Origin: Ancylobacter crimeensis
Lineage (GTDB): Bacteria; Pseudomonadota; Alphaproteobacteria; Rhizobiales; Xanthobacteraceae
Direction: 5' to 3'
Assembly (NCBI RefSeq): GCF_023016805.1
Contig: NZ_JALKCH010000002.1
Span: 372,001 to 436,000 of the forward strand
DNA: 64,000 nucleotides
Shown here piece after piece: positions 3,947-55,531 of this stretch; positions within the stretch are counted from its first letter, which is position 1, and each line of letters begins with the position of its first letter. Position numbers and translations under genes: made by a program. The notes below the pieces were generated by a model. The model saw nothing but the letters and a program-made list of their open reading frames with translations, did no database searches and was not told the DNA's origin.

Positions 3947-6808
3947 TCAGCCCGCCTTTGCGCTCTCCGCCTCGTCCTCGGCGTCGAGCACATGCAGCAG
4001 CGCCCGGCGGATCGCCGAATGGCGCGCGGCCCCGACGATCTTCGCCCCCATCAGGTCGGTGACGTAGAACACGTCGACCGCCCGCTCGCCGAAGGTCGCG
4101 ACATGGGCGGAGGCAATGTTGAGGTTGAGGCGCGAGAGCGTCTGCGTGAGGCCGTAGAGCAGGCCGGGCCGGTCGAGGCCGGACACCTCGATCACCGTAT
4201 GGCGGTTCGACCAGGCGTTGTTGAGCGTCACCTCCGGTTCCACCGTGAAGGCGCGCGGCCGCTTCGGCAGGCGGCGGGCGACCACCTCGGGCAGCTTGAT
4301 CTCGCCGGAGAGCGATTTCTCGATCGAGGCGGAGATGCGCTCGGCACGCCGGATCTCGTCGGCGTCCTGATCGAAGGAGCGGGTCAGCGAGATGGTGTCG
4401 AGCGCGCGCCCGTCGGTGGTGGTGGTGATCTGGGCGTCCACGATGTTCGCCCCGGCCGCCGCACAGGCGCCGGCGATGACGGCGAGCAGCTTGGGATGAT
4501 CGGGCGCGAGGACGGTCAATTCGGTCACACCACGCGCCTGATCGGTCTGACTGGTCGTCGCGAGGGCACGCCCTTCGGCCTCCGCTTCGAGGATGAAACG
4601 GGCGTGATCGAGCTTATGGTCGAGGTCGACGCGCAGCCAGTAGGACGGGTAGTGCAAGGCCATGTAGCGCTCGAGCGGCGCCTCGTCCCAACCGCTGATC
4701 GCGCCGCGGAATTCGCGTTGCGCCCGTGCCACCCGCTGGTTGCGGTTGCTCTCGGAGAACCCGCCGGTGATGACCGGTTCGGTCTCGTGGTAAAGCGTGC
4801 GCAGGAGCTGGGACTTCCAGTTGTTCCACACGCCCGGCCCGACGGCGCGGATATCCGCCGTTGTCAGGATCAGCAGAAGCTTCATCCGCTCCAGATTCTG
4901 CACCACGGCGGCGAAATTCTCGATGGTCTTGCGGTCGGACAAATCGCGCGACTGTGCGATGGTCGACATGGTGAGATGCTGCTCGATGAGCCACGCAACC
5001 GTGTCGGTATCGGCATGGGAAAGCCCGAAACGCGGGCACAGCCGCCGCGCCACCTTCGCGCCGGCGATGGAGTGATCCTCCGGCCGGCCTTTGGCGATGT
5101 CGTGCAGAAACACCGCGACATAGAGCAATTGCCGGTTCTTGATCTGCCCCATCAATTCAATGGCGAGCCCAAGCTCGGGCCGGTCGCCACGCTCGATCTC
5201 GGTGAGGGTGCCGATGGAGCGGATGAGATGCTCGTCCACCGTGTAGGAGTGATACATGTTGAACTGCATCATCGCGACGACCTTGCCGAACTCGGGCACG
5301 AAGCGCCCGAGCACGCCGGTCTCGTTCATCCGCCGCAGCACGATCTCCGGCGTCTTGCGCGAGCACAGGACCTCGAGGAAGAGCTTGTTGGCCTCGGCAT
5401 CCTCCCGCACCTTCTGATCGATCAGCTTCAGCGAGCGTGTCGCTAGCCGGATCGCGTCGGGGTGGAAGGCGAGCTCGTGCCGGTCCGCCAGGTGGAACAA
5501 GCGGATGAGGTTGACCGGGTCGCGGTTATAGGCCTCGGGATCGGCGATGTTGATGCGGTCATGGTCGACGATGAAGTCGCGGCTCTCCTTCAGCGTGCGG
5601 CGCGGCGAAGAGCGCAGCCGCGCGATCATCCGGTTGAGCCGCGGCACCGGCTTGTCGTGCCGTTCTTCCAGCGCCGCTGAGACGATGGCGGTGAGATCGC
5701 CGACATCCTTCGCGACGAGGAAATAGTGCTTCATGAAGCGCTCGACGTCGCGCAGGCCGGGATGCGCGGTATAGCCGAGCCGCTCCGCCATGTCGCGCTG
5801 GACGTCGAAGGACAGGCGTTCCTCGGCCTTGCCGGCGAGAAAATGGAGATGACAGCGCACCGACCAGAGAAAATCCTCGCAGCGCCGGAAAATGACCGAC
5901 TCTTCGGCGGTGAACACGCCCTTTGCCACGAGTTCGCGGGTCTCGCGCACGCGATAGACATATTTTGCAATCCAGAACAGCGTGTGCAGGTCGCGAAGGC
6001 CGCCCTTTCCATCCTTCACATTCGGCTCGACGACATAGCGCGACTGGCCGCCCCGCTTGAGCCGCTCCTCGCGCTCGGCGAGCTTGGCGGCGACGAATTC
6101 GACCGCCGTGCCCTCAACCACTTCCTTGTCGAAGCGGCGGGTCAGTTCATCGTAGAGCGAGCCCGTGCCGACCACACGGCGGGCCTCAAGCAGCGAGGTG
6201 CGGATCGTCATGTCCGCCCGGGCCTGGCGGATGCACTCATCCACGGAGCGCGTGGCGTGGCCGACCTTGAGACCCATGTCCCAGAGCACATAGAGCATGG
6301 CCTCGGCGACGCTCTCGCCCCACGCCGTCTGCTTGTAGGGCAGGAGGAACAGGATGTCGGTGTCGGAGCCGGGCGCCATGAGGCCGCGGCCATAGCCGCC
6401 GATGGCGATGATCTCCATGCGCTCGGCGGTGGAGGGATTATCGACCGGATAGAGCACGCTCACGACCATCTCATGGACAAGCGCGATGATCTCGTCATGA
6501 AGCCGGGACAGGCGCTCGGCGCAGCGGCGGCCGGAGCCGTCTTCCATGAGCCAGCGTTCCGCAACCTTCTGGCCATCCTGGTAGATGCCCTTCAAGTACT
6601 TTGCCGCCCGGGTGCGCAGGCTGATGCCGCCGCCCACCGGGTGAGCCAGATAGTCCTCGCCCATGATCCGCAACTGGGCCCTGACGGCGTCTATGTCGAA
6701 CAGTTCGCGAAAGGGATGGTCGGAACGGCGGCGGCGGCGAATGTCGGTCATGAGCGGGTCCGGTCGCGGCAATCCTCCCGATGTATCCGATCCTGTCGCT
6801 TCCGTCAT
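3947..6808 (-). CDS. glnD: Bifunctional PII uridylyltransferase/uridylyl-removing enzyme
   Basis: The product of about 953 residues is GlnD, which uridylylates and de-uridylylates PII proteins in response to glutamine, controlling nitrogen assimilation. The nucleotidyltransferase motif GGYGRG...GSDTDILFLL is at about 137-156. The PNVKDGKGGLRDLHTL motif is typical of the family. The HD hydrolase domain carries FLHDIAKGRPEDHS (about 567-580). Two ACT domains follow at the C-terminus, including ELTVLAPDHPKLLAVIAGACAAAG and VIEVSGLDRPGLLYGLTQTL. ATG 6808 has GAGG six bases upstream; GTG 6835 is an alternative. Confidence 0.97.
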   Translation of the reverse strand: MTEATGSDTSGGLPRPDPLMTDIRRRRRSDHPFRELFDIDAVRAQLRIMGEDYLAHPVGGGISLRTRAAKYLKGIYQDGQKVAERWLMEDGSGRRCAERLSRLHDEIIALVHEMVVSVLYPVDNPSTAERMEIIAIGGYGRGLMAPGSDTDILFLLPYKQTAWGESVAEAMLYVLWDMGLKVGHATRSVDECIRQARADMTIRTSLLEARRVVGTGSLYDELTRRFDKEVVEGTAVEFVAAKLAEREERLKRGGQSRYVVEPNVKDGKGGLRDLHTLFWIAKYVYRVRETRELVAKGVFTAEESVIFRRCEDFLWSVRCHLHFLAGKAEERLSFDVQRDMAERLGYTAHPGLRDVERFMKHYFLVAKDVGDLTAIVSAALEERHDKPVPRLNRMIARLRSSPRRTLKESRDFIVDHDRINIADPEAYNRDPVNLIRLFHLADRHELAFHPDAIRLATRSLKLIDQKVREDAEANKLFLEVLCSRKTPEIVLRRMNETGVLGRFVPEFGKVVAMMQFNMYHSYTVDEHLIRSIGTLTEIERGDRPELGLAIELMGQIKNRQLLYVAVFLHDIAKGRPEDHSIAGAKVARRLCPRFGLSHADTDTVAWLIEQHLTMSTIAQSRDLSDRKTIENFAAVVQNLERMKLLLILTTADIRAVGPGVWNNWKSQLLRTLYHETEPVITGGFSESNRNQRVARAQREFRGAISGWDEAPLERYMALHYPSYWLRVDLDHKLDHARFILEAEAEGRALATTSQTDQARGVTELTVLAPDHPKLLAVIAGACAAAGANIVDAQITTTTDGRALDTISLTRSFDQDADEIRRAERISASIEKSLSGEIKLPEVVARRLPKRPRAFTVEPEVTLNNAWSNRHTVIEVSGLDRPGLLYGLTQTLSRLNLNIASAHVATFGERAVDVFYVTDLMGAKIVGAARHSAIRRALLHVLDAEDEAESAKAG

Positions 6809-6844
6809 GTGGCGCCTCGATTCTTCCGCGGACACATGCCATGC

Positions 6845-6875
6845 AAAAATGCCCGGCCAAAGAGGCCGGGCATTT
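6845..6875 (-). terminator. Rho-independent terminator of the PRC-barrel gene
   Basis: Perfect 12-bp arms AAATGCCCGGCC / GGCCGGGCATTT enclose a 5-base loop. Read on the minus strand, the stem runs into ATTTTTGC. It lies 25 bp after the stop of the gene at 6900-7436, in the leader of glnD. Confidence 0.85.
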
Positions 6876-6899
6876 CTTCTTGGTGGTCGTCGGTGGCGT

Positions 6900-7436
6900 C
6901 TACTGGGTCTTGGTTTCGCCGCTCGCCGCGCGTGCCTGCGCGAGGTTCTTGAATTCCGGCGCCTGATTCAGCTCTTCCTTGGTGAGGGAGACCACAATCT
7001 TTTGGCCGCCATCGGTAGGGGCCATGGTCAGGGAATCGAAGGAGACGGCAACGGGTTTTGCACCAATGCCGAGGAACCCACCGACATCGATCACCGCAGC
7101 CACCGCCCGACCGTCTTTCTCCATCACGAGATCACTGATCGAGCCAAGCTTCTCGTCATTGGACGTGACGACGGCGGTGCCGATCAGTTCGCTGCCCAGC
7201 CATTGGTCCGGAGCCTGCTGGCTTACGAACCTGGCCGTGGTGGGAGCGACCGTGGCGCTGGTGCCCGGCGCAGGGGCCGTCGGCATGGCTTCGGGCGGAG
7301 CGGTGGTCGACGGGTTTTCGGGCGCCACCACGGTCGGCGGCGTGGCCGGGGCCGGAGCGGCACTATGGGCCAAGGCGACGGCCGGGCTGAGGGCCAGAGC
7401 CGCTACGGCGGTCATGGTCACGAGCTTATTGGTCAT
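6900..7436 (-). CDS. Exported PRC-barrel domain protein
   Basis: The 178-residue product has an N-terminal signal peptide (MTNKLVTMTAVAALALSPAVALAHS), then an Ala/Pro/Thr-rich spacer. A PRC-barrel-like domain follows at about 80-150, recognisable by the GSISDLVMEKDGRAVAAVIDVGG pattern around residues 102-127. Such secreted PRC-barrel proteins are common in Hyphomicrobiales and their function is unknown. GGGAGAT lies just upstream of the ATG. An exact GGAAC-N16-CGTT sequence 60 bp upstream suggests transcription by EcfG, matching the stress locus next door. Confidence 0.85.
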   Translation of the reverse strand: MTNKLVTMTAVAALALSPAVALAHSAAPAPATPPTVVAPENPSTTAPPEAMPTAPAPGTSATVAPTTARFVSQQAPDQWLGSELIGTAVVTSNDEKLGSISDLVMEKDGRAVAAVIDVGGFLGIGAKPVAVSFDSLTMAPTDGGQKIVVSLTKEELNQAPEFKNLAQARAASGETKTQ

Positions 7437-7496
7437 CAGTCATCTCCCAGTTTCATTGATCCGTTTCGTCGGCATGGCAGCCGATCATGAAAGACC

Positions 7497-7521
7497 AACG
7501 CCTCGGAGATGATGATGTTCC
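7497..7521 (-). promoter_or_regulatory. EcfG-type promoter of PRC-barrel gene
   Basis: On the minus strand GGAAC (7521-7517) is followed after exactly 16 bases by CGTT (7500-7497). This is the alphaproteobacterial EcfG (general stress sigma factor) consensus. It lies about 61 bp before the ATG at 7436. Confidence 0.75.
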
Positions 7522-7545
7522 CTAACGTTATTTCATCGACATGCG

Positions 7546-7971
7546 TCAGAGAGAGGCAACACAGACGGTCAGTTCCTCCGTCGCACTGTTGGTACGCAGC
7601 GCACCGATGGAGGACAGGCAGCCGCGCGGTAGCGCATTGGTCCGCTCCCGCATTGGAGCGCTTCCCGTTGCTTTCTGGGCGACGACACTCTTCGACACGA
7701 TGGATGTCTGGGCGCTGGCGATCTCCGAGACGAGGGAGGCCGAGGTGCCGGGGACATGCGGCAGCGCAAGACGATCCGTCTTTCCGGCGTGGTTCACTTC
7801 ATTGATGGCCGGGCGCGTGACGACGATGCGTGGCATCTCCGCCGAACTGGTGGTCGCTGCAACCGCGCCGAGACCCGAAGCGACGAGGAGGAGGGGAACG
7901 GCTACGACAGCCATGCGCGCCGTACCCGAATGGCGGCGCAGAACGGCAGAACGGGGGGAAACGCGCAGCAT
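7546..7971 (-). CDS. Small putative exported protein, unknown function
   Basis: This 141-residue product is not recognised. A basic N-terminus precedes a hydrophobic segment (about 20-41, AVVAVPLLLVASGLGAVAA) that could be a signal peptide or anchor. The rest is polar and Ser/Thr-rich with two cysteines near the end (LPRGCLSS and VCVASL). GGGAGAGA lies 6-8 bases before the ATG. A possible EcfG promoter (GGAAC-N16-GGTT) lies 140 bp upstream. The gene sits between stress-locus genes in the same orientation. An opposite-strand frame overlaps it but lacks comparable signals. Confidence 0.6.
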   Translation of the reverse strand: MLRVSPRSAVLRRHSGTARMAVVAVPLLLVASGLGAVAATTSSAEMPRIVVTRPAINEVNHAGKTDRLALPHVPGTSASLVSEIASAQTSIVSKSVVAQKATGSAPMRERTNALPRGCLSSIGALRTNSATEELTVCVASL

Positions 7972-8108
7972 GGAAGTCTCTCCCTTTCGGACCGCCGCAC
8001 GTCACGTGGCTTCGCACGCGGCGCATTCATGATGCGCCGCCGGATAGCGGACGTTGGACCGGTTGAGATGTGGTGGGGCGCACGAGCTTCAGCGACCCGA
8101 TCGCACCT

Positions 8109-8135
8109 TTAACCTTCAAGGAAAGGTTAAGTTCC
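8109..8135 (-). promoter_or_regulatory. Possible EcfG-type promoter with overlapping inverted repeat
   Basis: GGAAC (8135-8131) is followed after 16 bases by GGTT (8114-8111), the same variant seen in front of nepR. The element overlaps an inverted repeat, TTAACCTT (8109-8116) and AAGGTTAA (8123-8130). The repeat could equally be a weak terminator of the kinase gene ending at 8191. Confidence 0.4.
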
Positions 8136-8190
8136 ACCGTCGAAAACGCAGCAATTTCCGGTACGATGAGAGGTGTGCCGTAAGCAGGTG

Positions 8191-9528
8191 TCAGCGCGAC
8201 GGGGTGAGGTGCTGTTGCGGCACGACGACGTGGCAGGCGACGCCGTCGAGGGCGAAGTCAAGCGTTACCTCGCCGTCGAGAGCCCGCGAAAGATTCCGCT
8301 CGATGACAAGGGAGCCGAAGCCGCGACCTTCGGGAGCGCGAACGGGCGGCCCGCCCTTTTCGACCCAGCTGAGGTCGATGCCGCCTCCATCTGCGAGCGG
8401 CCGGTGCTCCCACCGGATCTCGACATGGCCGCCGGGGACGGACAGTGCTCCATATTTCGCGGCGTTTGTGGACAGTTCGTGCAGGGCAAGGCCAAGATTT
8501 TGAGCGGCTTCCGGCTTCAGCATGAGGTCCGGCCCCTCGATCGTCACCTGGCTGCCGTCCTTGTTGAGGTGATGGCCGAGCTGCGAGCGTACCATCTCGG
8601 TGAGTGAGGCACCGTGCCAGCTCTCCTGCACAAGCAGGTCGTGCGAGCGCGCCAGCGCCTGAAGTCGTGCGCTGAACTGCTCGACGAAATCATCCGTGGT
8701 GCCGGCGTGGCGTGCGGTCTGCCGGGCCATGGCCTGGATGACCGCGAGCAGGTTCTTCGAGCGATGGGTCAGCTCGCGCATCAGCAGGCGTAGATGCCGT
8801 TCATTTTCCTTGCGGTCGGTCACATCAACCGCAGCACCAGTGAGGCCGACCGTGGCACCGTTGAGATCGCGCAGGGGCTCGATATGGACGTCGTACCAGC
8901 GCTTGCCGTCGGCCTCGTCGACCTCCACCTCGCCTTTGCGGGTCTCGTTGGTGGTGAGAGCTTCGCGCTTGAGCTCGTCGAGCGGTTTTGCATAGGCGGC
9001 ATCGAGGACGTCGATGTCGGTTGACCCCAAGACCTTTTCGATGGGAAGGCCGAAGATCGGTTTGCTCACCGAGGTGTAGTGCAGGTCCTTGTCCTGCGTG
9101 AAGATTGCGACATTGGAGCCTCGCAACGCCATCTCGTAACGTTGCAGAGCGCTCGCAAGTTCGAGGGTCAATCGCCGTTGTTCGCTCGCGACGGTGTCCG
9201 GCAGAGGCAGCTTTACGAGAGATTCGAAATGCGTCCACAGCACGATTGCGATGGACACCATGAGAACGGAGCCCACCAGCCGCACAGTGCTCTGCAGTCC
9301 CGCCACCACGCCGCTGTCGCCGAGCGATACCAGCACGGACAGGATTCCGAGGGTGAGGGCGAGGGCGGCAAACAACAGGGCCAGCCAGCGGGCGCGGGCC
9401 GGCAGGTTTCGGCGGATCCGGGTGAAGCGGAGAAGCCCGATGGAAATGGCAAGCGACGCGGCAGCGGTTATGAGCCGCGCCGCGTCATCTAGGTGGTTCA
9501 GTAGCCAGCCCATGCCCGGGACGCTCAC
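8191..9528 (-). CDS. HWE-type sensor histidine kinase of the general stress response
   Basis: The 445-residue protein has three predicted membrane segments (about 13-33, 47-70, 80-98), a cytoplasmic PAS domain (about 130-240) and an HWE/HisKA_2-type kinase domain. The phosphoacceptor His255 lies in MRELTHRSKNLLAVIQAMA and the N-box reads LALHELSTNAAKYGAL. HWE/HisKA_2 kinases are the usual PhyR-phosphorylating enzymes (PhyK-like). GTG 9528 overlaps the phyR stop by four bases, so the two are translationally coupled; ATG 9513 is an alternative. The missing periplasmic sensor domain suggests membrane or cytoplasmic sensing. Confidence 0.9.
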   Translation of the reverse strand: MSVPGMGWLLNHLDDAARLITAAASLAISIGLLRFTRIRRNLPARARWLALLFAALALTLGILSVLVSLGDSGVVAGLQSTVRLVGSVLMVSIAIVLWTHFESLVKLPLPDTVASEQRRLTLELASALQRYEMALRGSNVAIFTQDKDLHYTSVSKPIFGLPIEKVLGSTDIDVLDAAYAKPLDELKREALTTNETRKGEVEVDEADGKRWYDVHIEPLRDLNGATVGLTGAAVDVTDRKENERHLRLLMRELTHRSKNLLAVIQAMARQTARHAGTTDDFVEQFSARLQALARSHDLLVQESWHGASLTEMVRSQLGHHLNKDGSQVTIEGPDLMLKPEAAQNLGLALHELSTNAAKYGALSVPGGHVEIRWEHRPLADGGGIDLSWVEKGGPPVRAPEGRGFGSLVIERNLSRALDGEVTLDFALDGVACHVVVPQQHLTPSR

Positions 9529-10328
9529 GCGGTCGCGCGCTGCTCCCGGGGGCGTGCCTTGCGTTCGAAGAACAGCGCCTGGCTGATCACCGCCGCGACG
9601 GTGGAGGGCTGGAACGGCTTGGCAATGAGGAAGGCCGGCTCGGGGCGCACGCCTGTAAGGAAGCGCTCGGGATAGGCCGTGATGAAGATGACCGGCACTT
9701 CCACGCTCTCGATGAGTTCATTCACCGCATCCAGACCGGACGAGCCGTCGGCGAGCTGGATATCCGCCAGCACCAGGCCGGGCGTGCGCCGGCGGGCCAG
9801 AGCGACCGCTTCCGAATGTGTGCGGGCGATCCCGGTGACGCGATGGCCGAGGCTTTCCACCAGGCCTTCGAGGTCCAGTGCGATGAAAGGCTCGTCTTCG
9901 ATGATGAGCACATCGGTCGCGATCTCGGCGGCAAGTTCGCGTCCGGCATCCTCGACCAGACCCCGCAGCCGCGGAACGTCGATATCCAGCACGGTGGCGG
10001 CGTCCTGCTCGTCGAAACCCTCGAGAGACACCAGAAGGAACGCCTGGCGCACCAGCGGCGTTATGTGACCGAGCCGCTGCTCACCCCTCACGGCGGGCGC
10101 GGCCGGATCGACTTCGTTATTGATGGCGACAGAATTCCAGAGCCGGGTCAGCAGTCGATACAGGGAAACCCGCGTATCGACATTGCGGTCGAGGGAGTCC
10201 GGTTCGGCAATAAGGGCTTCGAGCAGCGCAGTGACATAGGCGTCGCCGGCCGATTGGCTGCCGCATAAGGCACGGGCATAGCGACGAAGAAAAGGCAGGT
10301 ATTGCGCGACCAGCTGCGATGTGCTCAC
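9525..10328 (-). CDS. phyR: PhyR anti-anti-sigma response regulator
   Basis: The 267-residue product is PhyR. Its N-terminal half (1-130) mimics an ECF sigma factor and captures NepR. The C-terminal receiver (about 138-260) has LIIEDEP, the phosphoacceptor in LVLADIQLADG (Asp189) and FITAYPERF with the late Lys in IAKPF. Phosphorylation exposes the sigma-like domain, freeing EcfG. The GTG start at 10328 was chosen because GGGGAGA precedes it and the protein then begins MSTSQLVAQYLPFLRRYARA, as in the family. It is divergent from nepR-ecfG and has its own EcfG-type promoter. Confidence 0.95.
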   Translation of the reverse strand: MSTSQLVAQYLPFLRRYARALCGSQSAGDAYVTALLEALIAEPDSLDRNVDTRVSLYRLLTRLWNSVAINNEVDPAAPAVRGEQRLGHITPLVRQAFLLVSLEGFDEQDAATVLDIDVPRLRGLVEDAGRELAAEIATDVLIIEDEPFIALDLEGLVESLGHRVTGIARTHSEAVALARRRTPGLVLADIQLADGSSGLDAVNELIESVEVPVIFITAYPERFLTGVRPEPAFLIAKPFQPSTVAAVISQALFFERKARPREQRATA

Positions 10329-10368
10329 AGACGTCTCCCCGATAGGTCGAAGGCTTAACGGGGAGCAT

Positions 10369-10393
10369 AACGCCGCCTCGGGCGCTGTGTTCC
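10369..10393 (-). promoter_or_regulatory. EcfG-type promoter of phyR
   Basis: GGAAC (10393-10389), 16 bases, then CGTT (10372-10369) on the minus strand, 41 bp before the phyR GTG. This is an exact match to the EcfG consensus and implies positive feedback. Confidence 0.8.
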
Positions 10394-10433
10394 ATGGCAT
10401 CGTGAAAAATCGTTCAAAAATGTTGCCGGCGCG

Positions 10434-10458
10434 GGAACCCGAAGGCGTGGAAGGGGTT
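10434..10458 (+). promoter_or_regulatory. EcfG-type promoter of nepR-ecfG
   Basis: GGAAC (10434-10438), 16 bases, then GGTT (10455-10458) on the plus strand, 53 bp before the nepR ATG. One base differs from CGTT. Autoregulation of nepR-ecfG is known in other alphaproteobacteria. Confidence 0.65.
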
Positions 10459-10510
10459 GGAGTGGGACCTGGCGGCGGACATCCGGATCTCCGGGCGCTT
10501 GGGAGGCCTA

Positions 10511-10795
10511 ATGTCGGGACGGAAGAGAATGGAAGACGAGCAGGCGGACGCCGGGGCCCTCGGGACCGGGGGGGCAACCATTTCCCAGTTGCGCAGAGGT
10601 GTCACGCCCGCGCCCGGAACTACACTCGGCCGCGATGTGCAGTCGAAAATCGGGCAGCATTTGCGGGCTATGTACGACGATGTCGTGAGGCAGGGGGTGC
10701 CCGACCGGTTCCTTGACCTTCTCGCACAGCTCGACGAGCCGGCGAACAGTGAAGGCAAGGATGGTAAGGCGTCGGGCGAGGGGAAGCAGCGGTGA
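10511..10795 (+). CDS. nepR: NepR anti-sigma factor
   Basis: This 94-residue protein carries the NepR signature IGQHLRAMYDDVVRQGVPDR followed by FLDLLAQLD (about 47-75), flanked by disordered, charged tails. NepR sequesters EcfG until phosphorylated PhyR competes for it. The ATG at 10511 follows GGGAGG; a longer in-frame start at 10457 has no ribosome site. The stop overlaps the ecfG GTG by four bases, ensuring coupled, near-stoichiometric synthesis of sigma and anti-sigma. Confidence 0.93.
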   Translation: MSGRKRMEDEQADAGALGTGGATISQLRRGVTPAPGTTLGRDVQSKIGQHLRAMYDDVVRQGVPDRFLDLLAQLDEPANSEGKDGKASGEGKQR

Positions 10796-11346
10796 GCACC
10801 TTCGATCCCGGCCTTCGAAAGGAAATCATCGAGGCTATTCCCAATCTGCGCGCCTTTGCCATTTCCTTGAGCGGCAGCGTCGACCGGGCGGATGACCTCG
10901 TGCAGGAAACGCTACTGCGGGCTTTCGCCAATATTTCGAGTTTCCGCCCGGGCACTAACCTCTCGGCGTGGCTCTTCACCATCCTGCGAAACCTCTTCCG
11001 CTCGGAATACCGCAAGCGGCGGCGCGAGGTTCCGGACAGCGACGGTGTGTTTGCCGCGACGCTCACCACCAATCCTGACCAGACCACGCATCTGGACTTC
11101 GAGGACTTCCGTTCCGCACTCGACCGCCTGCCGCCGGACCAGCGCGAGGCGCTTGTTCTGGTGGGAGCCTCCGGCTTTTCCTACGAAGAGGCTGCGGACA
11201 TCTGCCAATGCGCGGTCGGTACCATCAAGAGCCGGGTGAACCGCGCGCGTCGTCGGCTTGGTGAGATGCTGTCGATCGATACCATCGAGGATTTCGGGCC
11301 GGATCAGCCGACCCGTGCAGCGGTTGCTGCCATTCATCGTCCCTGA
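10792..11346 (+). CDS. ecfG: EcfG general stress sigma factor
   Basis: The 184-residue ECF sigma factor belongs to the EcfG (ECF15) group. The sigma-2 region contains DRADDLVQETLLRAFANISSF (about 31-51) and LSAWLFTILRN. The sigma-4 region contains LDRLPPDQREALVLVGASGFSYEEAA and CAVGTIKSRVNRARRRL. It starts with GTG inside the nepR stop (GTGA). Context of phyR, kinase and nepR fixes the assignment. A REP-like hairpin and a strong bidirectional terminator follow. Confidence 0.95.
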   Translation: MSTFDPGLRKEIIEAIPNLRAFAISLSGSVDRADDLVQETLLRAFANISSFRPGTNLSAWLFTILRNLFRSEYRKRRREVPDSDGVFAATLTTNPDQTTHLDFEDFRSALDRLPPDQREALVLVGASGFSYEEAADICQCAVGTIKSRVNRARRRLGEMLSIDTIEDFGPDQPTRAAVAAIHRP

Positions 11347-11373
11347 CGCCATTCATCACAATCTGACGCAGAC

Positions 11374-11405
11374 TCATCCCGGAGCGCGTTGGCGTTCCGG
11401 GATGA
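11374..11405. repeat. REP-like hairpin (CATCCCGGA family)
   Basis: Arms TCATCCCGGA (11374-11383) and TCCGGGATGA (11396-11405) form a perfect 10-bp inverted repeat after ecfG. A related core (ATCCCGGA/TCCGGGAT) recurs at 51113-51142. Confidence 0.6.
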
Positions 11406-11436
11406 TCTTGCATGTCGGTTCCGGTAAATGAGGACT

Positions 11437-11468
11437 AAAAAAACCCCGGAGGTTGCTCCGGGGTTTTT
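11437..11468. terminator. Bidirectional rho-independent terminator
   Basis: A run of A is followed by CCCCGGAG, loop GTTG, CTCCGGGG and then TTTTT. Because of the flanking A and T runs it can work both for ecfG (plus) and for the DUF1328 gene (minus), which converge here. Confidence 0.9.
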
Positions 11469-11482
11469 CCATTTGCGTCCTT

Positions 11483-11659
11483 TTAAATTCCGCTCGACCG
11501 GCCTCGGACCATGCCGAAGACCGCCGAAATAAGGAAAAGGACAATTGCGACGAAGAAGATGATCTTCGCGATGCCGATCGCCGTTCCCGCAATGCCGCCG
11601 AAGCCGAGCACTGCGGCGATCAGCGCGATGACGAGGAAAGTAACAGCCCAACCCAGCAT
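11483..11659 (-). CDS. DUF1328 small membrane protein (YtjA family)
   Basis: The 58-residue product is two hydrophobic helices with a short basic tail: [20 protein letters not shown], a glycine-rich turn, then [20 protein letters not shown]. This matches the DUF1328/YtjA family of stress-linked inner-membrane peptides of unknown function. The start at 11659 has GGAGG about eight bases upstream; a longer frame exists but is unconvincing. An EcfG-type promoter lies upstream, placing the gene in the general stress regulon. Confidence 0.88.
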
Positions 11660-11705
11660 GGAAAAACCTCCGGTCTGTCTGCGGACCTTGCCGCTTCGAT
11701 CAAGT

Positions 11706-11731
11706 AACGAACGAAACGTGCGGTAAGTTCC
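11706..11731 (-). promoter_or_regulatory. EcfG-type promoter of DUF1328 gene
   Basis: GGAAC (11731-11727), 17 bases, CGTT (11709-11706) on the minus strand, 47 bp before the ATG at 11659. Spacing is one base longer than at the phyR promoter but within the known range. Confidence 0.65.
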
Positions 11732-11750
11732 GCATCCGCAGCAGGAAGCC

Positions 11751-12656
11751 TCACGCCTGGTTGCGCGCCCGCAGGATGGGGCCGACGAGCCGGGCTTCGG
11801 CGACAAGCGCGGCGGTGATGGGCGTCATCGGGTCACGATCGAGCACGACCAGCCCGATCTCGTGCAGCACTTCCGGGTCGACGATGGGAATGGAGCGGAC
11901 CTTGGTGCGGAACGCGAACACATCCGCCAGCGAGGTCGGCACCACGCTTGCCCATTGGCCGGTGCTCACATGGGCGAGGAGGGCGATGGTGGAATTGGAC
12001 TCCAGCATCGGCGTGCCGGCATGGCCCGCCTGCTTGAGCTGGCGTTCCACGATGCGCCGGTTCTGCATGTCGGGGGTAAGCAGGCAGAGCGGCACCTGCC
12101 CGATTTCCTCCCACGTCACGCGCTCGCGATCGCCAAGCGAAGAATCGGCGGCGGTAAGGAAACGGTAGCCCTCCTGATAGAGTGGAACCGTTTTGACCCG
12201 GCCCAGCGGGTCGTTGTCCAGATAGGTGATGCCGGCGTCGGCTTCCAGATTCTCGATGAGCCGCAGCACTTCGTTGGAGGTAGCGGACATCAGGGTGAAA
12301 CGCACATCCGCATGCTTCTGGTGGAAAGGGGTGGTGAGCTCGGAGAGCATCGGCATTGCGGTCGGGATCGCGGCAATGCGCAGATGGCCGGAGAGGCCGC
12401 GCCGAAGTGAGGCGATCTCCTGTCGCATGGCACGGGCATCGCCCACGATGCGCCGCGCCCATTCCAGGGCGCGCTCGCCCTCGGTGGTGAAGCCGATGAA
12501 GCGCGACCCCCGTTCGACGAGGCGTACGCCGAGAGCTTCCTCCAACTGCTTCAGGCCGGCGGAGAGGGTAGGCTGGGTTACGCCGCAGGCCTCCGCGGCC
12601 CGGCCGAAATGGCGCTCCTTGGCCAGCGCCAGCAGAAGTTCGAAACGATCGAGCAC
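11751..12656 (-). CDS. LysR-family transcriptional regulator
   Basis: The 301-residue protein has an N-terminal winged helix-turn-helix (about 3-62, [20 protein letters not shown]) and a LysR substrate-binding domain (about 90-290). The target and co-inducer are unknown. The start chosen is GTG at 12656, preceded by GGGAAG and giving the typical beginning [17 protein letters not shown]; the open frame extends 54 codons further but without family similarity. The gene is downstream of rmuC in the same orientation and no obvious divergent target is present. Confidence 0.85.
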
Positions 12657-12756
12657 GCAAACGCTTCCCGGTGGATAAGCGCGCCTTTTAACAGATGCAC
12701 GGCCAGTTGCGAATTGGACAGATGTCAGGTTCGGCGCCGCCCTGATTTTAGAGGCG

Positions 12757-13953
12757 TCAGGTCGTGCGGCGTGCCGTCGCGAGACCGGCGAGCGTGGCAA
12801 GATCATCCTCGACACCATTGACCGGCGGCGAGCGCTCGAATTCGAGCTGGTCGATGCGTGCGCCCCGTCGGGCGATCTTGTCGGCGGAGATCAGGGCCTG
12901 GGCGACATCGTCCCCGACCTGGCCGAAATGACGCTGCAGATTGCCGACTCGCTCGCGCAGCCGCACCACATCCGCCACCAGAGCTCCGCATTCCGCCCGG
13001 ATGAGGTCGGCCTGCTCGCGCATACGGGCATCCTTGACGATGGCCTGGACCACCTGGATCGCCAGCATCAGCAGGGAGGGGGAGACGAGGATGACCCGCG
13101 CCCGGAAAGCACGCTGGATAACGTCGTCGAAATGTTCGTGCAGCTCGGCATAGACCGACTCGGACGGCAGGAACATCAGCGCGACGTCCTGCGTCTGGCC
13201 GCTCACCAGATAGCGTTCGGCAATATCGGTGATGTGCTTGCCGACATCCTGCTTCAGCCGGCTTTCCGCGTGTCGCCGCGTCTCAGCGCCGCTGGCCTCG
13301 CGAAAGGCTGTCACCGCTTCGAGCGGGAATTTGGAATCGATGAGCAGCGGGCGATGGTCGCCGGGCAGGAACACGGCGCAGTCCGCACGCCTTCCTCCCG
13401 GGAGGGTGAATTGGAAGGCGAAGCTGTCGCGCGGCAGTCCGTCCGCGACGATCGCCTGCAGCCGTCCCTCGCCGAAGGCCCCGCGCGCCTGCTTGTTGGA
13501 AAGTGTCTCGCGCAGGCTCATCACCTGCCCGGAGAGTTCGCCCAGACTCTGGCGGGCCTGGTCGACCAGCGCGAGGCGTTCGTTCAGACGGGCGAGATTC
13601 TCATGCGTTGCCTCGCTGGCGCGGGCGAGGCTTTCGCCCATGCGATGGCTCGTCGCGTCGAGCCGTTCCGCCACGGCGCGCGACAATTCGCTCTGGCGAT
13701 GGGTGAGAAGCTCGGCCATCGACTGCACGCGGCCGACCGTCTCGGACTGGATACGCGCGAGGTCGGCGAGCCGATCCTCGAGATCGAGCGCGCGCTGGTG
13801 TTGCTCGTCCGCTTCCGCCGCCCGCAGGCCTGCCTGCCGCCGGGTCGACAGCAGGAGCGTAAGGAGCAAAAGCAGGGCGCCGCCCGCGAGTGCCAGCAGA
13901 AGCTGGCTCGTGCGGACCAGATGCGTGCCGATCGAGAACAGGGGCTCGTCCAT
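12757..13953 (-). CDS. rmuC: RmuC-family DNA recombination protein
   Basis: The 398-residue product begins with one membrane helix (about 18-37), followed by a long coiled-coil region (about 40-150). The RmuC domain (about 155-350) contains [17 protein letters not shown] and the nuclease-like [11 protein letters not shown] and [14 protein letters not shown]. RmuC limits inversion at short inverted repeats in E. coli. The gene is divergent from def. Confidence 0.93.
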
Positions 13954-14066
13954 GGGCCTGCTCTAGCGCGTTTTCCGGCGTCTGGCGAACAAAAAGCGAA
14001 CAATATCGCGCCTGTGCCCTCATCTTCCTCGTTGACCCTCACCGGGCTCTCGCTTATCTGCCTGTC

Positions 14067-14591
14067 ATGCCGCAACGCCCGCTCGTCATTCTTCCCGATA
14101 GCCGTCTTCGTCTCACCTCGGACCCGGTCGTCCGCGTGGACGCAAAGGTGCGTTCGCTGGTCGAGGACATGTTCGAAACCATGTATGAGGCGCCGGGCAT
14201 CGGCCTCGCCGCCATTCAGGTCGGCGTGCCGGAACGCGTCATTACCATCGACGTGTCGCGCGAGGGCGAGGACAAGAAGCCGCTCCTCCTGATCAACCCC
14301 GAAGTGGTTGCCGAGTCGGACGAACGGTCCGTCTACCAGGAAGGCTGCCTGTCGATCCCCGAATATTACGAGGATGTCGAACGACCGGCGCGGGTCACGG
14401 TCCGCTACATGGATATCGACGGGGAGACCCGCGAGATCGAGGCCGACGGATTGCTCGCGACCTGCGTGCAGCACGAGATAGACCATCTCAATGGCGTGCT
14501 CTTCATCGATCATATTTCCAAACTGAAGCGCGATCGCGTGGTGAAGAAGTTCACCAAGCTGGCGCGCGAGCGCGAGCGGGACGAGCGCTAA
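14067..14591 (+). CDS. def: Peptide deformylase
   Basis: This 174-residue enzyme removes the N-formyl group from nascent proteins. All three motifs are present: [10 protein letters not shown] (44-53), EGCLS (92-96, metal ligand Cys94) and HEIDH (136-140, metal ligands His136 and His140). The ATG at 14067 gives the usual family start ([15 protein letters not shown]). It is followed 47 bp later by fmt, the normal def-fmt operon, so formylation and deformylation are co-expressed. Confidence 0.97.
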
Positions 14592-14638
14592 GCGGTTTCC
14601 CCGTTCACCCGAGTCCTGAACAAAGCCACAGGGGTAGC

Positions 14639-15556
14639 ATGCGCGTCGTCTTCATGGGAACGCCGGGTTTCTCGGTTCCGACACTGGCGGAGATCGTCGG
14701 CCGCGGGCATGAGGTCGTGGCCGTCTATACCCGCGCACCGGCGCCGGGAGGGCGGCGGGGCCTCGATCGGGTGCCCTCTCCCGTTCAGGCCGCGGCCGAG
14801 CGCTTCGGACTCCCGGTCTTCCATCCCGCTTCGCTGCGAACGCCCGAGGCTGCTGCTGCGTTTGCCGCTCATGAGGCAGACGTCGCCGTCGTCGTCGCCT
14901 ATGGCCTCATCCTCCCGCCGGCCATCCTTGCCGCGCCGCGGCTCGGCTGCCTCAATCTCCACGCGTCCTTGCTGCCGCGCTGGCGCGGCGCGGCCCCGAT
15001 CCAGCGTGCCATCATGGCGGGCGACCGGGAGACCGGCGTCGCGGTGATGCAGATGGAAGCCGGTCTCGACACGGGCCCGGTCGGTCTCATCGAACGGGTG
15101 GGGATCGAGCCCGACATGACGGCCGGCGAGCTGCACGACCGGCTGATGATCATCGGCGCGGACCTCATGGCGCGGGCGCTGTCGGCGCTCGATCGCGGGG
15201 GCCTCGTCTTCACGCCCCAGCCCGAGGTCGGCGTTGCCTATGCCGCCAAGCTCGACAAGGCCGAAACGCGGATCGACTGGAGCCGTCCGGCACAGGAAGT
15301 GCACGATCACATTCGCGGCCTGTCGCCCTTTCCCGGCGCGTGGTTCGACCTCGACGGGGCGCGCGTGAAGGTGTTGCGATCGGCGCAGGCGCAGGCGCAC
15401 GGCGAGCCCGGCATGTTGATCGATGACGGATTGACGGTCGCCTGCGGCGCGGGTGCCGTGCGTCTCGTCGAGGTGCAGAAGGCCGGAGCGCGTGCCATGC
15501 CGGCAGGGGAGTTCCTGCGCGGAACGGCGCTTCTCAAGGGGATGCGACTGGGATGA
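14639..15556 (+). CDS. fmt: Methionyl-tRNA formyltransferase
   Basis: The 305-residue protein formylates initiator Met-tRNA using 10-formyl-tetrahydrofolate. The N-terminal domain starts [16 protein letters not shown] and carries the active-site segment [20 protein letters not shown] (about 109-128), with the later [10 protein letters not shown]-like METGLDTG pattern seen as [10 protein letters not shown]. The C-terminal OB-fold domain follows. It lies directly after def and overlaps the next gene by four bases. Confidence 0.97.
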
Positions 15557-52653: not shown

Positions 52654-53163
52654 TCACGAATGCGCGAGCAGACGGACCTCTGCGAGGCTCAGCGGGCGGG
52701 GCGCGCGGCCGTCGAAATAGACGAAGCGCAGGGTGCGGCGGCGCGACACCATTGCCGCCGGCAGCGGGTCGTAGCGGAACGAGCCGCCGCCGAGATGGGG
52801 CATGACCGCGCCCATGTCGGTCGCCTCCTGCGTCTCGACGCGCAGCAGCGCGAGCCTGGCTCCGTCGGTCGCCACCGCCTCGAAGGGAATGTTGGCGAGC
52901 CGCAGGAAGGAGGTCGGGTCGCTGGCCGAGCCGAAGCCCTCGACGAAGGCCTTCTCGACCAGATCGAGATCCGGCTCCTCGTGGACGTGCTCCTCCGCCG
53001 GCGGCTGGGCCGGCAGATGCGGGGTCTGCCACTGCGCGGCCCGCCGCGGCCCGTGGCCGTGATTGTGGCCGGGGCCGTGGGAAGGGTCGTGGGAGTGGGA
53101 ATGGGCGTGGGAATGCCCGCCGTCGCCATGGTCGTGCTGGTGATGATCGTGGCCGCGATGCAT
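52654..53163 (-). CDS. Histidine-rich protein, putative nickel chaperone of guanidine hydrolase
   Basis: This 169-residue protein is not from a family I can name. Its first 38 residues contain 15 histidines (MHRGHDHHQHDHGDGGHSHA and onward), a typical Ni or Zn buffer. After a Pro-rich linker, residues 65-160 form a compact domain with DLDLVEKAFVEGFGSASDPT, SFLRLANIPFEAV and TLRFVYFDG. It has no cysteine pair, so it is not HypA, and no GTPase motif, so it is not HypB/UreG. It lies 113 bp after the guanidine hydrolase gene on the same strand, suggesting metal delivery to that enzyme. The role is inference. Confidence 0.8.
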   Translation of the reverse strand: MHRGHDHHQHDHGDGGHSHAHSHSHDPSHGPGHNHGHGPRRAAQWQTPHLPAQPPAEEHVHEEPDLDLVEKAFVEGFGSASDPTSFLRLANIPFEAVATDGARLALLRVETQEATDMGAVMPHLGGGSFRYDPLPAAMVSRRRTLRFVYFDGRAPRPLSLAEVRLLAHS

Positions 53164-53276
53164 GGCGGTGTCCTCGATGAAACGTCGTCCCGGCCGTAGC
53201 ACCGGGATCGCGCGGCTGTCAGGGAGCGGGCGGGCGATGCCGGCTCGGCCCGCGGCCGTGCGGGCGGTGCCGGCCC

Positions 53277-54491
53277 TCAGAAGCTCACCGGCTTGTCGAT
53301 GATGTGCTTGTGCGCGCCGAGCTTGCCATGCGCCACCATAGAGCCGAGGGCTTCCACCACCACGCGCAGGCCGAACAAAGCGGTGATGTCGGAGGTGTCG
53401 TAGGGCGGGGAAACCTCCACCACCTCCAGTCCGCACAGCCCTTCGGCGGCGACGAGGCCGAGGATCTTCAGCGCCTCGCGCGGCAGGAAGCCGCCCGGTT
53501 CCGGCCAGCCGGTGCCCGGCACGAAGCCGCAATCGATGCTGTCCACGTCGAAGGAGATGTAGACCGCGTCGGCGTCCTTCCAGGCGAGTTCGAGCGCGAT
53601 CTCGGCGGTCTTCTCCAGCCCGATCTTCTCGATATCGTCGATGGTCAGCACATTGGTGCCGCGCTTCCTCGCTTCCTGCACGCCGTAGCGCGGCACCTGC
53701 CAGCCACCGATGCCGAGCTGCACGAGGTTCTTGGGCGAGACGTTCGGCAGGTTGGTCGCCCAATACCAGGGCGTGGTGTGCATCCGCTCGTCGAGATCCT
53801 TCTCCTGGATGTCGATGTGGCGGTCGAAATGGATGATGCCGATGCGCTTGGAGGTGCACTCGGCGATGCCGCGCACGCAGGGAAAGCCGATGGAATGGTC
53901 GCCGCCCAGCATGATCGGCAGCGCGCCGGAGGAGAAGACGTGGCTGACGCCGCGCGAGATCTGGTCGAAGCTCTTTTCGAGATTGGCGGGGATGGTGAAC
54001 ACGTCGCCGACGTCGCACAGCGTCATCTGCTCGCGCAGATCGACGCCCAGCTCGTAATTATAGGGCGTGTACAGCGCCGAGATGCGGCGGATGCCCTGCG
54101 GCCCGAAGCGGGTGCCGGGGCGATAGGTGGTGCCCGAGTCGAACGGGATGCCCAGAACCGCCGCGTCATATTTGCCGACATCGCGGACATTCTCGACATA
54201 GGGCGCCTTGAGGAAGGTGTTGATGCCGGCGAAATGGGGCAGCTCGCCGCGCGCGAAGGTCGGGATCGACCGGTCGGTGATCGAATCCGCGCCGGGCAGG
54301 CCCATGTCGAGCGCCCATTGCTGCTCCTTGCGCCAGCCGGATTCGGACAGGCCTTCTTCGGCCTCCAGCGCCTTCCAGCCCTGCATCCCCTTGATCTCGA
54401 AATTGGGATGGTGGCGGCGGCTGGGCTCGGGCCGGCGGGCGAGGCCGGCGATGCGGTTTTTGCGGGTACGGTTGAGCGGAGCGCAGTCCAT
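53277..54491 (-). CDS. gdmH: Guanidine hydrolase (GdmH-like ureohydrolase)
   Basis: The 404-residue protein belongs to the arginase/agmatinase superfamily. Metal ligands lie in GGDHS (196-200), DRHID (223-227) and SFDVDSID (313-320). It differs from agmatinase by a long N-terminal extension (about 1-100) and by the block ERMHTTPWYWATNL...QLGIGGWQVPR (235-268), which I associate with Ni-dependent guanidine hydrolases (guanidine to urea and ammonia). A guanidine-I riboswitch in its leader supports this strongly. ATG 54491 follows GAGGAGA; ATG 54515 is an alternative. Guanidinopropionase or another guanidino substrate is possible but less likely. Confidence 0.87.
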   Translation of the reverse strand: MDCAPLNRTRKNRIAGLARRPEPSRRHHPNFEIKGMQGWKALEAEEGLSESGWRKEQQWALDMGLPGADSITDRSIPTFARGELPHFAGINTFLKAPYVENVRDVGKYDAAVLGIPFDSGTTYRPGTRFGPQGIRRISALYTPYNYELGVDLREQMTLCDVGDVFTIPANLEKSFDQISRGVSHVFSSGALPIMLGGDHSIGFPCVRGIAECTSKRIGIIHFDRHIDIQEKDLDERMHTTPWYWATNLPNVSPKNLVQLGIGGWQVPRYGVQEARKRGTNVLTIDDIEKIGLEKTAEIALELAWKDADAVYISFDVDSIDCGFVPGTGWPEPGGFLPREALKILGLVAAEGLCGLEVVEVSPPYDTSDITALFGLRVVVEALGSMVAHGKLGAHKHIIDKPVSF

Positions 54492-54606
54492 GCGGGTTCT
54501 CCTCGCCAGATGCATCGGAACAGATGCCTGCGCTGCGGAGAGGCGAAGGAGGGCGACGAGGCCGCCATTCCGCCGCCGCGACCCGCCTCGCGACGCCTGC
54601 TGGGCT

Positions 54607-54722
54607 TGCCTCCCGGGCTTTTGTCCCGCCGTGGACCCGACGCGCCAAGGACCGTGTGGCCTGTGCTGCCGGGCTGTCCCTCTCGGACCAGCCGCGGGAC
54701 GCTGCCCGCCGGAACCCTAGGA
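54607..54722 (-). promoter_or_regulatory. Guanidine-I (ykkC) riboswitch
   Basis: The leader RNA on the minus strand shows the diagnostic conserved blocks of the guanidine-I aptamer in order: CTAGGGTTCCG (54720-54710), CTGGTCCGAGAG (54691-54680) and GGGACAAAAGCCCGGGAG (about 54627-54610), separated by pairing regions. It lies 115 bp before the gdmH ATG. The aptamer class activates genes when guanidinium binds. A downstream segment CTCCTTCGCC (54551-54542) could pair with the GGCGAGGAG ribosome site (54507-54499), a possible translational switch. Confidence 0.92.
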
Positions 54723-54889
54723 ACGACGCGAGCCTAGCAGCGGCCGGCGGATGAGCGGAAGCCCCGATTTGCGGCAGAAGGCGAGGCAGGACGCTGAAAG
54801 TTTCGGCGCGCTGAAAGGCTCGGTGCCCGGAAGGATGAGGGCCCCGGGATGGACCGGGGCTCCTGCCGCTGCTCGGAGCGGACGGGCGG

Positions 54890-55531
54890 TCAGAGCACGC
54901 CGGTCAGCAGGCCGACGCCCGCCACGGCGACGAACGCGCCGACGATGCGGGTGAGGTGCGGTGCGCGGTTCTCGCCGATCCGGCCGATGGCGATGCCGAT
55001 ACCGATGCCCGCCAGATGCAGCAGGGCCGTCGCCAGCATGAAGCCGGCCGCATAGCCGGCGCCGGACGCATCCGGCGGCATCTCGGCTCCGTGGGCATGG
55101 CCGTGGAAAATCGCGAAGAAGCCGACCATCGCCATGGCAAGGCCGAGGGGCCATTCCTTCCAGTCGAGCGCGACGGCGGCACCGAGCGCGATCACCGAGG
55201 CCGCGATGCCGATCTCGACAAACGGAACCTCGATCCCGGACATGCCCAGCGCGCCACCGACCGCCATCAGGGTGACGAAGGCGGCGGGTACGGCCCACAG
55301 CGCCCGCCCGCCCAGATTGGCGGCGAAGATGCCGACGGCCACCATCGCCAGAATATGGTCGATGCCGCCGATCGGGTGCAGGAAGCCATGGACGAAGCCA
55401 TGCGTGTCGCCGACGCCGGTGTGAGCGAAGGCGAGCGAGGGGCTGAGCGCGAAGAGGCCCGCGAGCGGGCCGCGCAGGCGGCGGGCGAGGGAGGACGGGC
55501 CGACAGAGGAAGACTGGCCGACAAAGGACAT
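54890..55531 (-). CDS. HupE/UreJ-type nickel transporter
   Basis: The 213-residue membrane protein has a signal peptide ending SLAFAHTG, then the family motif HPIGGIDHILAMVAVGIFAAN (about 52-72) and about six helices. A late FHGHAHGAEMP motif (about 143-153) and the first HTGVGDTHGF give conserved His residues. HupE/UreJ proteins import nickel for hydrogenase or urease. Neither is present in the window, so the nickel probably serves the guanidine hydrolase next door. ATG 55531 was chosen; the alternative 55537 codon is TTG. Confidence 0.9.
   Translation of the reverse strand: MSFVGQSSSVGPSSLARRLRGPLAGLFALSPSLAFAHTGVGDTHGFVHGFLHPIGGIDHILAMVAVGIFAANLGGRALWAVPAAFVTLMAVGGALGMSGIEVPFVEIGIAASVIALGAAVALDWKEWPLGLAMAMVGFFAIFHGHAHGAEMPPDASGAGYAAGFMLATALLHLAGIGIGIAIGRIGENRAPHLTRIVGAFVAVAGVGLLTGVL

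Follow-up and report, generated by a model that had tools for sequence, protein, structure and literature searches.

The window studied here, a stretch of 64,000 nucleotides of the Ancylobacter crimeensis genome (contig NZ_JALKCH010000002.1, positions 372,001 to 436,000), carries on its minus strand a guanidine locus whose last gene encodes a His-rich protein, to which we refer as the GdmH partner. In the order of transcription the locus comprises hupE/ureJ (55531-54890), a guanidine-I riboswitch (54731-54608), the guanidine hydrolase gene gdmH (54491-53277) and the His-rich gene (53163-52654). The original prediction had placed these four elements on one strand, and each of them was confirmed at the position given. 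The 213-amino-acid (AA) product of hupE/ureJ is a HupE/UreJ-type importer of nickel (or cobalt), with 192.6 bits against PF04955 where the cut-off is 23 (E 5.5e-57). The riboswitch aptamer (RF00442) scores 72.3 bits with the covariance model against a gathering score of 63, and is the sole Rfam match at gathering within the window; control of hupE by a B12 riboswitch was rejected, as the window holds no such match. A simple scan found no minus-strand terminator 3' of the riboswitch. Its position puts gdmH and the His-rich gene within reach of the riboswitch; hupE lies upstream of the riboswitch and is for that reason probably outside its control.

Judged by its sequence, the 404-AA enzyme is a GdmH-type guanidine hydrolase of the ureohydrolase family (PF00491) rather than an agmatinase. 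It contains the motifs GGDHS, DRHID, DVDSID and PGTGWPEPGG, which cover the presumed binuclear metal site and the active-site Trp region; the W-type motif is present in at least 60 of 64 GdmH-clade sequences. The best Protein Data Bank (PDB) relatives in a phmmer search are 7esr/7oi1 (E 2.9e-162) and 9fek (E 1e-156), the next family following at E 2e-51, and scores against the NCBIfam agmatinase models fall below cut-off. The entries 7OI1/7ESR are reported to be the guanidinase of Synechocystis and 9FEK that of Nitrospira inopinata, and the same source describes Trp305/Trp313 in the active-site Trp region (PMC11410670).

The partner is a protein of 169 AA without a known family, and in all intact cases that were inspected its gene adjoins gdmH. 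Alignments and per-residue model confidence (pLDDT) delimit a disordered His-rich tail (residues 1-41; 53041-53163), which begins MHRGHD and has a GHN motif at residues 32-34; it is followed by an AAQWQTPH motif identified by alignment (residues 42-49; 53017-53040) and by a conserved C-terminal domain of alpha-alpha-beta type, predicted to be globular by the structure model (residues 62-169; 52657-52980). The 15 His reported earlier for the first 38 of the 169 residues were counted again with the same outcome, and of the 338 stop-to-stop open reading frames with 100 AA or more that the window contains, that of the partner alone reaches 12 or more His within any stretch of 38 residues. The two genes are separated by a G+C-rich gap of 113 bases (53164-53276); of the 13 most closely related named loci (L001-L013), 9 likewise show gaps of more than 100 bases, and in many distant relatives the genes touch or overlap.

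A strict association with GdmH

A search of named genomes with the partner alone as query retrieved 22 loci, and each of these independent homologues has gdmH directly upstream on the same strand (22/22; 84-97% identity). The riboswitch is present at 19 of the 22, and the three loci without a match (L014, L018, L022) hold less than 2 kb upstream of gdmH; beyond the named loci it was detected in 4/6 gdmH stretches of a class-wide genome sample (not L043, L047) and in 3/3 plasmid stretches.

The same pairing was observed in four genome samples, which overlap in membership. In the class sample (289 genomes) a GdmH-clade enzyme is encoded in 7 genomes (73-100% identity), and the partner in the same 7 and, as a remnant, in G125; in the phylum sample (398 genomes) GdmH occurs in 7 and the partner in the same 7, in the order of the window (145 genomes) in 17 (74-100% identity) and the same 17, and in the order of G505 (145 genomes) in 16 and the same 16. 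Combined, all 41 distinct genomes with a GdmH-clade enzyme have the partner directly downstream, and the co-occurrence that the original prediction offered as its check is thus strict in these samples. Identical sets would be expected by chance with probabilities of 3e-15 (phylum), 2e-22 (order of the window) and 1e-21 (order of G505) if genomes were independent, figures that ignore relatedness and for which the GdmH clade was drawn afterwards. At E<=1e-70 the class sample gave 9 raw GdmH matches and the order of the window gave 21, of which 2 and 4 more distant ones, respectively, were set aside; the partner was sought with a profile of alignment A1 in the class sample and of alignment A2 in the other three. 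Scoring was limited to the top candidates of each genome (no more than 12, 9, 25 and 25), and that faint relatives elsewhere could be missed in this way counts against the exclusiveness of the pairing; cyanobacterial and Nitrospira genomes, comammox included, lay outside all searches.

Across 65 compiled loci, which include probable duplicates between collections, gdmH and the partner gene lie on one strand in every case, their distance ranging from -11 to 217 bases. L053, from a genome of the same genus as that of the window, agrees with L009 (Ancylobacter polymorphus) in predicted start, spacing and GdmH identity, in keeping with the Ancylobacter kinship of the window. Eleven plasmid records carry gdmH-like genes, and the seven with the partner are exactly the alphaproteobacterial ones (five of Sinorhizobium fredii, one each of Limimaricola variabilis and Rhodobacteraceae SC52); in the two of these seven whose gene tables were inspected with entries, the protein is annotated as "hypothetical". 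No description of it was found among the matches listed in the open-access literature, supplements being outside the scope of that search. The partner represents an undescribed family that accompanies GdmH. The sole exception to its confinement to gdmH genomes is G125, which has no gdmH at E<=1e-70 and in which a remnant of ~80 residues of the C-terminal domain lies beside ABC-transporter-like genes (L040, ~6119-6364), probably as a decayed partner copy.

The position of hupE in the system is a different matter. It adjoins the locus, as originally proposed, but it stands upstream of the riboswitch, and relatives were seen, apart from the window, at only 5 of the 22 named loci carrying the His-rich gene and at L054, where hupE is directly downstream of the partner gene; it is a looser associate of the gdmH-partner pair than had been supposed. 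As a separate observation, the spacer within the gdmH-partner pair of L007 (~5758-5871) and L055 (~2860-3029) contains repeat-like sequence (reading e.g. MAGLDPAIHV...GSSPGMT), presumably of the dispersed intergenic kind.

Anatomy of the partner family

In alignments A1 and A2 a variable His-rich N-terminal tail precedes a conserved C-terminal domain of ~100 residues, and on this evidence it is the domain, not the tail, that defines the family. The His-rich character that first drew attention to the protein holds for most members, with at least five tail His in 62 of 65 (fewer in L026, L029 and L084, the last when started at its ATG), but the mark of the family is the C-terminal domain, L029 being tail-less. 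The AQWQTPH sequence is invariant across the 20 rows of A1, and GHN is found in 55/65 members. Two types can be told apart: type a (35/65 loci), with a GdmH 83-97% identical to that of the window and QWQTPH (32) or QWQVPH (3) before the domain, and type b (30/65), with a GdmH 70-80% identical and HLHSH in 22/30.

The partner of the window has no match in Pfam or NCBIfam at E<=1, and 24 family members scanned with Pfam yielded no credible domain of any kind. A Pfam match to Zip (E 0.58), the four NCBIfam families matched by a few of the 24 members (best DmeF, E 0.0058; Ni/Co efflux, E 0.056) and an NCBIfam match to UreE in one of them (E 0.78) were rejected as probable effects of His composition, and a weak match to Lmo0131 in the PDB (E 0.058) was lost in profile searches. 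A P-loop NTPase domain of the HypB/UreG/CooC type was not found in the partner (no Pfam match at E<=1), nor were UreE domains found by Pfam in the 24 members; homology to HypA was likewise rejected, with an hhalign probability of 0.1 against three HypA proteins, no PF01155 domain, which carries two CXXC pairs, in the 24 members, and no Cys in the window protein. The description of a His-rich protein with neither Cys pairs nor a GTPase motif therefore stands. In the full AlphaFold model a disordered tail (block-mean pLDDT 43-53 over residues 1-40) is joined to a folded core, which, modelled alone, reaches a mean pLDDT of 85.0 and a pTM of 0.68. Foldseek returned no PDB match at E<=0.05 (best E 0.34 for the whole model and 0.076, TM 0.25, for the core alone); the core fold may be new, or the model may be too inaccurate for matching.

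The extreme N-terminus shows a further regularity. The initiator Met is removed before small residues. With the start of each protein set at the earliest in-frame ATG close to the stop codon of gdmH, and with this rule applied, the predicted mature position 2 is His in 53/65 loci and in 31/39 clusters at 75% identity, whereas the remaining tail has a median fraction of 0.27 His. The window protein, starting MHRGHD, also has His at position 2, as in HypA, which we regard as resemblance and not homology. Twelve loci lack this His2 (L004, L007, L014, L015, L020, L024, L028, L055, L081, L082, L083, L089), and in six of them a start at a later ATG would yield MH or MPH; L084 was scored as a match via its ATG, a GTG start being possible there. 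In loci with an 11-base gene overlap the start MPHD is partly dictated by the end of gdmH, and MPHD is found without overlap too (L025, L026, L029, L086, L088, L091, L093, L094). An ATCUN-type N-terminus, with His at position 3, fits only L020 under the start rule and was dismissed.

Distances between GdmH proteins and between partner cores correlate with r 0.92 in 63 of the 65 loci (two with partial GdmH were left out), a comparison made without species-tree control, which lessens its weight as evidence for a dedicated pair; types a and b match two GdmH groups. For GdmH the distances average 0.12 inside type a, 0.18 inside type b and 0.27 between the two types; for the partner core the corresponding means are 0.40, 0.43 and 0.71. 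Such co-divergence, the location of conservation in the C-terminal domain instead of the tail, and the 11-base overlap in several type-b loci, which suggests coupled translation, would all suit a lasting subunit or a folding or stability factor of GdmH, its tail being incidental or tuning, as MefH-beta is to MefH-alpha; MefH is reported to require this second, non-catalytic subunit (PMC11399263). We nevertheless consider such a role unlikely, as at least five tail His are kept in nearly all members, hupE recurs at some partner loci, and the N. inopinata guanidinase, described as a homohexamer resembling Synechocystis GdmH, was active when made without any such protein (PMC11410670). The free drift of tail length and sequence would, in turn, be compatible with a nickel reservoir or detoxifying buffer that is induced with GdmH and is no specific inserter, and nickel storage or buffering has been suggested for the His-rich tails of HypB (PMC7055735). 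For a pure buffer, however, a conserved 100-residue domain co-diverging with one enzyme would be superfluous and confinement to gdmH genomes unexpected, and we regard this reading as quite improbable.

Nickel supply and the proposed role of the partner

The original prediction had seen neither HypA nor HypB at the locus and had left room for hyp genes elsewhere; across the assembly (4.30 Mb, 26 contigs, 99.87% complete) none were found, there being no match to HypA and none to HypB above cut-off, with two weaker HypB matches at sites typed as UreG and as a CobW-family GTPase. Of five cobW-fold GTPase matches in this genome, four were typed (three CobW-family, one UreG), and the fifth has E 1e-4. 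Among the 12 alphaproteobacterial carriers to which the hyp-gene check extended, the flanks of the 22 named loci lying outside it, HypA is missing from 8, the genome of the window included, and HypB exceeds its cut-off in 3; a hypA-hypB pair lies off the gdmH contig in G365, G148 and G600, and a partial HypA on another contig in G124. Sub-cut-off HypB matches of 64 to 85 bits occur in 14/15 genomes tested, the exception being G064 (68% complete), and were typed UreG in both cases examined (G000, G096). In G096 (L043) the pair of gdmH and partner gene (6171-7945) has ureG (2649-3209) upstream of it at a distance of ~3 kb, urease-maturation and guanidine-hydrolysis genes being neighbours there.

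The partner occupies the place that is held by Hyp proteins elsewhere. The genes hypA and hypB are listed among those often sharing operons with such enzymes (PMC8390497), activation of MefH/DmgH is reported to need Ni and co-expressed HypA/HypB (PMC11399263), nickel-delivery proteins are reported to activate GdmH as well (PMC11399263; PMC12186494), and hupE is found 3' of metformin hydrolase genes (PMC11399263). Like the partner, GhaA/GhaB of Synechocystis GdmH and HypA/HypB of metformin hydrolase operons are encoded with a Ni-ureohydrolase, in Synechocystis also under a guanidine-I riboswitch, and they are described as needed for enzyme activity (PMC12186494; PMC12930504; PMC11399263). HypA shares with the partner the His at position 2, which in HypA is critical for Ni binding (PMC7055735); unlike HypA/HypB, the partner has no HypA sequence similarity, no GTPase domain and, in the window protein, no Cys, and a single protein stands where they are a pair. 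CooJ of Rhodospirillum rubrum, too, is small, operon-borne, His-rich at one end and encoded beside a nickel enzyme, and cooJ mutants are reported to require added nickel (PMC6006190); its His-rich part is C-terminal, however, and it works with the ATPase CooC; the resemblance is one of description, with the Pfam and NCBIfam scans as the sequence evidence that bears on it. His-rich UreE and His-tailed HypB also combine a His-rich nickel tail with a folded domain (PMC7055735), whereas no Pfam domain was found in the 24 partner members.

Because the partner stands in the Hyp slot with hupE nearby, and because of the parallels to His2 of HypA, to the HypB tails and to CooJ, nickel delivery appears to be its likeliest role. 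The partner serves as prototype for an undescribed family going with alphaproteobacterial GdmH, and we consider it likely that it loads, or helps to load, the nickel of that enzyme; the best reading, by analogy, is a GdmH-dedicated nickel-delivery protein in place of HypA/HypB. Of the originally proposed "novel, simpler nickel chaperone", the dedicated and undescribed GdmH partner and the lack of HypA/HypB here have held up, and the chaperone role itself is argued from analogy. We infer nickel binding, docking on GdmH and transfer, which could proceed as follows. HupE would import Ni(II), and guanidine, by binding the riboswitch, would induce gdmH jointly with the partner gene. Ni(II) would be gathered by the disordered His-rich tail and relayed by the N-terminal amine with mature His2, the GHN motif and the pre-core motif, which is QWQTPH in type a and in most cases HLHSH in type b. 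The conserved C-terminal domain would dock on apo-GdmH and the ion would reach the active site, possibly with the participation of a GTPase, UreG being present. GdmH would then yield urea and ammonia, and urease presumably consumes the urea, since the genome has ureG. That a single non-NTPase of new fold replaces HypA/HypB altogether, as an independently evolved minimal system made up of a HypA-like His site, a His collector and a GdmH-docking domain, is a tentative extension of this proposal about which we are more doubtful.

Several points weigh against nickel delivery by the partner. As hupE is upstream of the riboswitch, it is probably not induced with the pair. Within the family, the tail is missing in L029, where MPHDAAPEPG precedes the core, and short in L026; in the core neither a His nor a Cys is invariant, and hence no metal site is obvious there; and His2 is partly to be expected in a His-rich tail and depends on predicted starts and on the Met rule. 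Published nickel insertion systems have NTP hydrolysis in common (PMC6006190). Comammox is described as having no dedicated loader detected and a nickel-loading mechanism that is unclear, and the N. inopinata enzyme, expressed in E. coli with no chaperone added, showed activity despite incomplete Ni loading (PMC11410670). Finally, UreG is the sole nickel GTPase found in the genome of the window, and urease factors might serve GdmH. The partner might, along these lines, handle Mn, Zn or Co for GdmH, or link GdmH to urease through nickel or urea with UreG as the GTPase. His-rich HypB binds several metals (PMC7055735), each subunit of the N. inopinata guanidinase made in E. coli contained one Ni together with one Mn (PMC11410670), and the sub-cut-off HypB matches, UreG in both cases examined, would be in keeping with it; yet the partner is confined to gdmH in the four samples, in which urease was no covariate, and GdmH and close relatives are reported to depend on Ni, and we deem this explanation very improbable.

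It also speaks against a general requirement that GdmH-like enzymes occur without the partner. Four actinomycete plasmid records with a gdmH-like gene (L064, L065, L066, L070) have no partner on the record; because L064 and L066 retain the GdmH Trp motif, and L064 the riboswitch as well, GdmH-type enzymes can exist without the partner and not every GdmH needs it (L070 has Thr at this place). The L064 stretch (7825-15433), from a Rubrobacter indicoceani plasmid, carries the guanidine-I riboswitch, gdmH, a sodium:solute symporter gene, a formamidase gene on the opposite strand and urease genes, and neither the partner nor annotated hypA/hypB. Six alphaproteobacterial genomes (G064, G079, G686, G722, G724, G778) similarly encode a GdmH-like enzyme (54-57% BLAST identity) without the partner, and these enzymes were set apart only after they had appeared as misses. 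They lie at L042 (~7193-8428), L104 (5082-6350), L105 (1362-2564), L106 (4963-6180), L107 (5677-7077) and L041 (2537-3312); the five readable ends have PGTGT or PGTGS and not the GdmH Trp, and all six contain a His-rich insert after HTTPW(Y/F)W. No guanidine-I riboswitch was found in the five stretches scanned (L042 and L104-L107, with only 1.4 kb upstream in L105), and in L107 the enzyme reading frame has a His-rich start and a hupE relative adjoins. We read the six as a putative sister group of GdmH with a built-in His segment, perhaps another Ni-ureohydrolase with its own nickel-collecting loop, as if the His collector could be supplied either in trans, by the partner, or in cis, by the loop of the sister enzymes (L041, L042, L104-L107).

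How GdmH is supplied with nickel where HypA/HypB are missing is a question that has been raised in print for comammox (PMC11410670). For alphaproteobacteria, with Ancylobacter, Sinorhizobium fredii and Limimaricola among them, the partner family offers a concrete answer, which does not extend to comammox. A protein so far annotated as "hypothetical" receives a function that can be tested, with the prediction that co-expression of the partner makes these GdmH enzymes fully active. The partner might also represent a nickel-insertion system without a dedicated NTPase.

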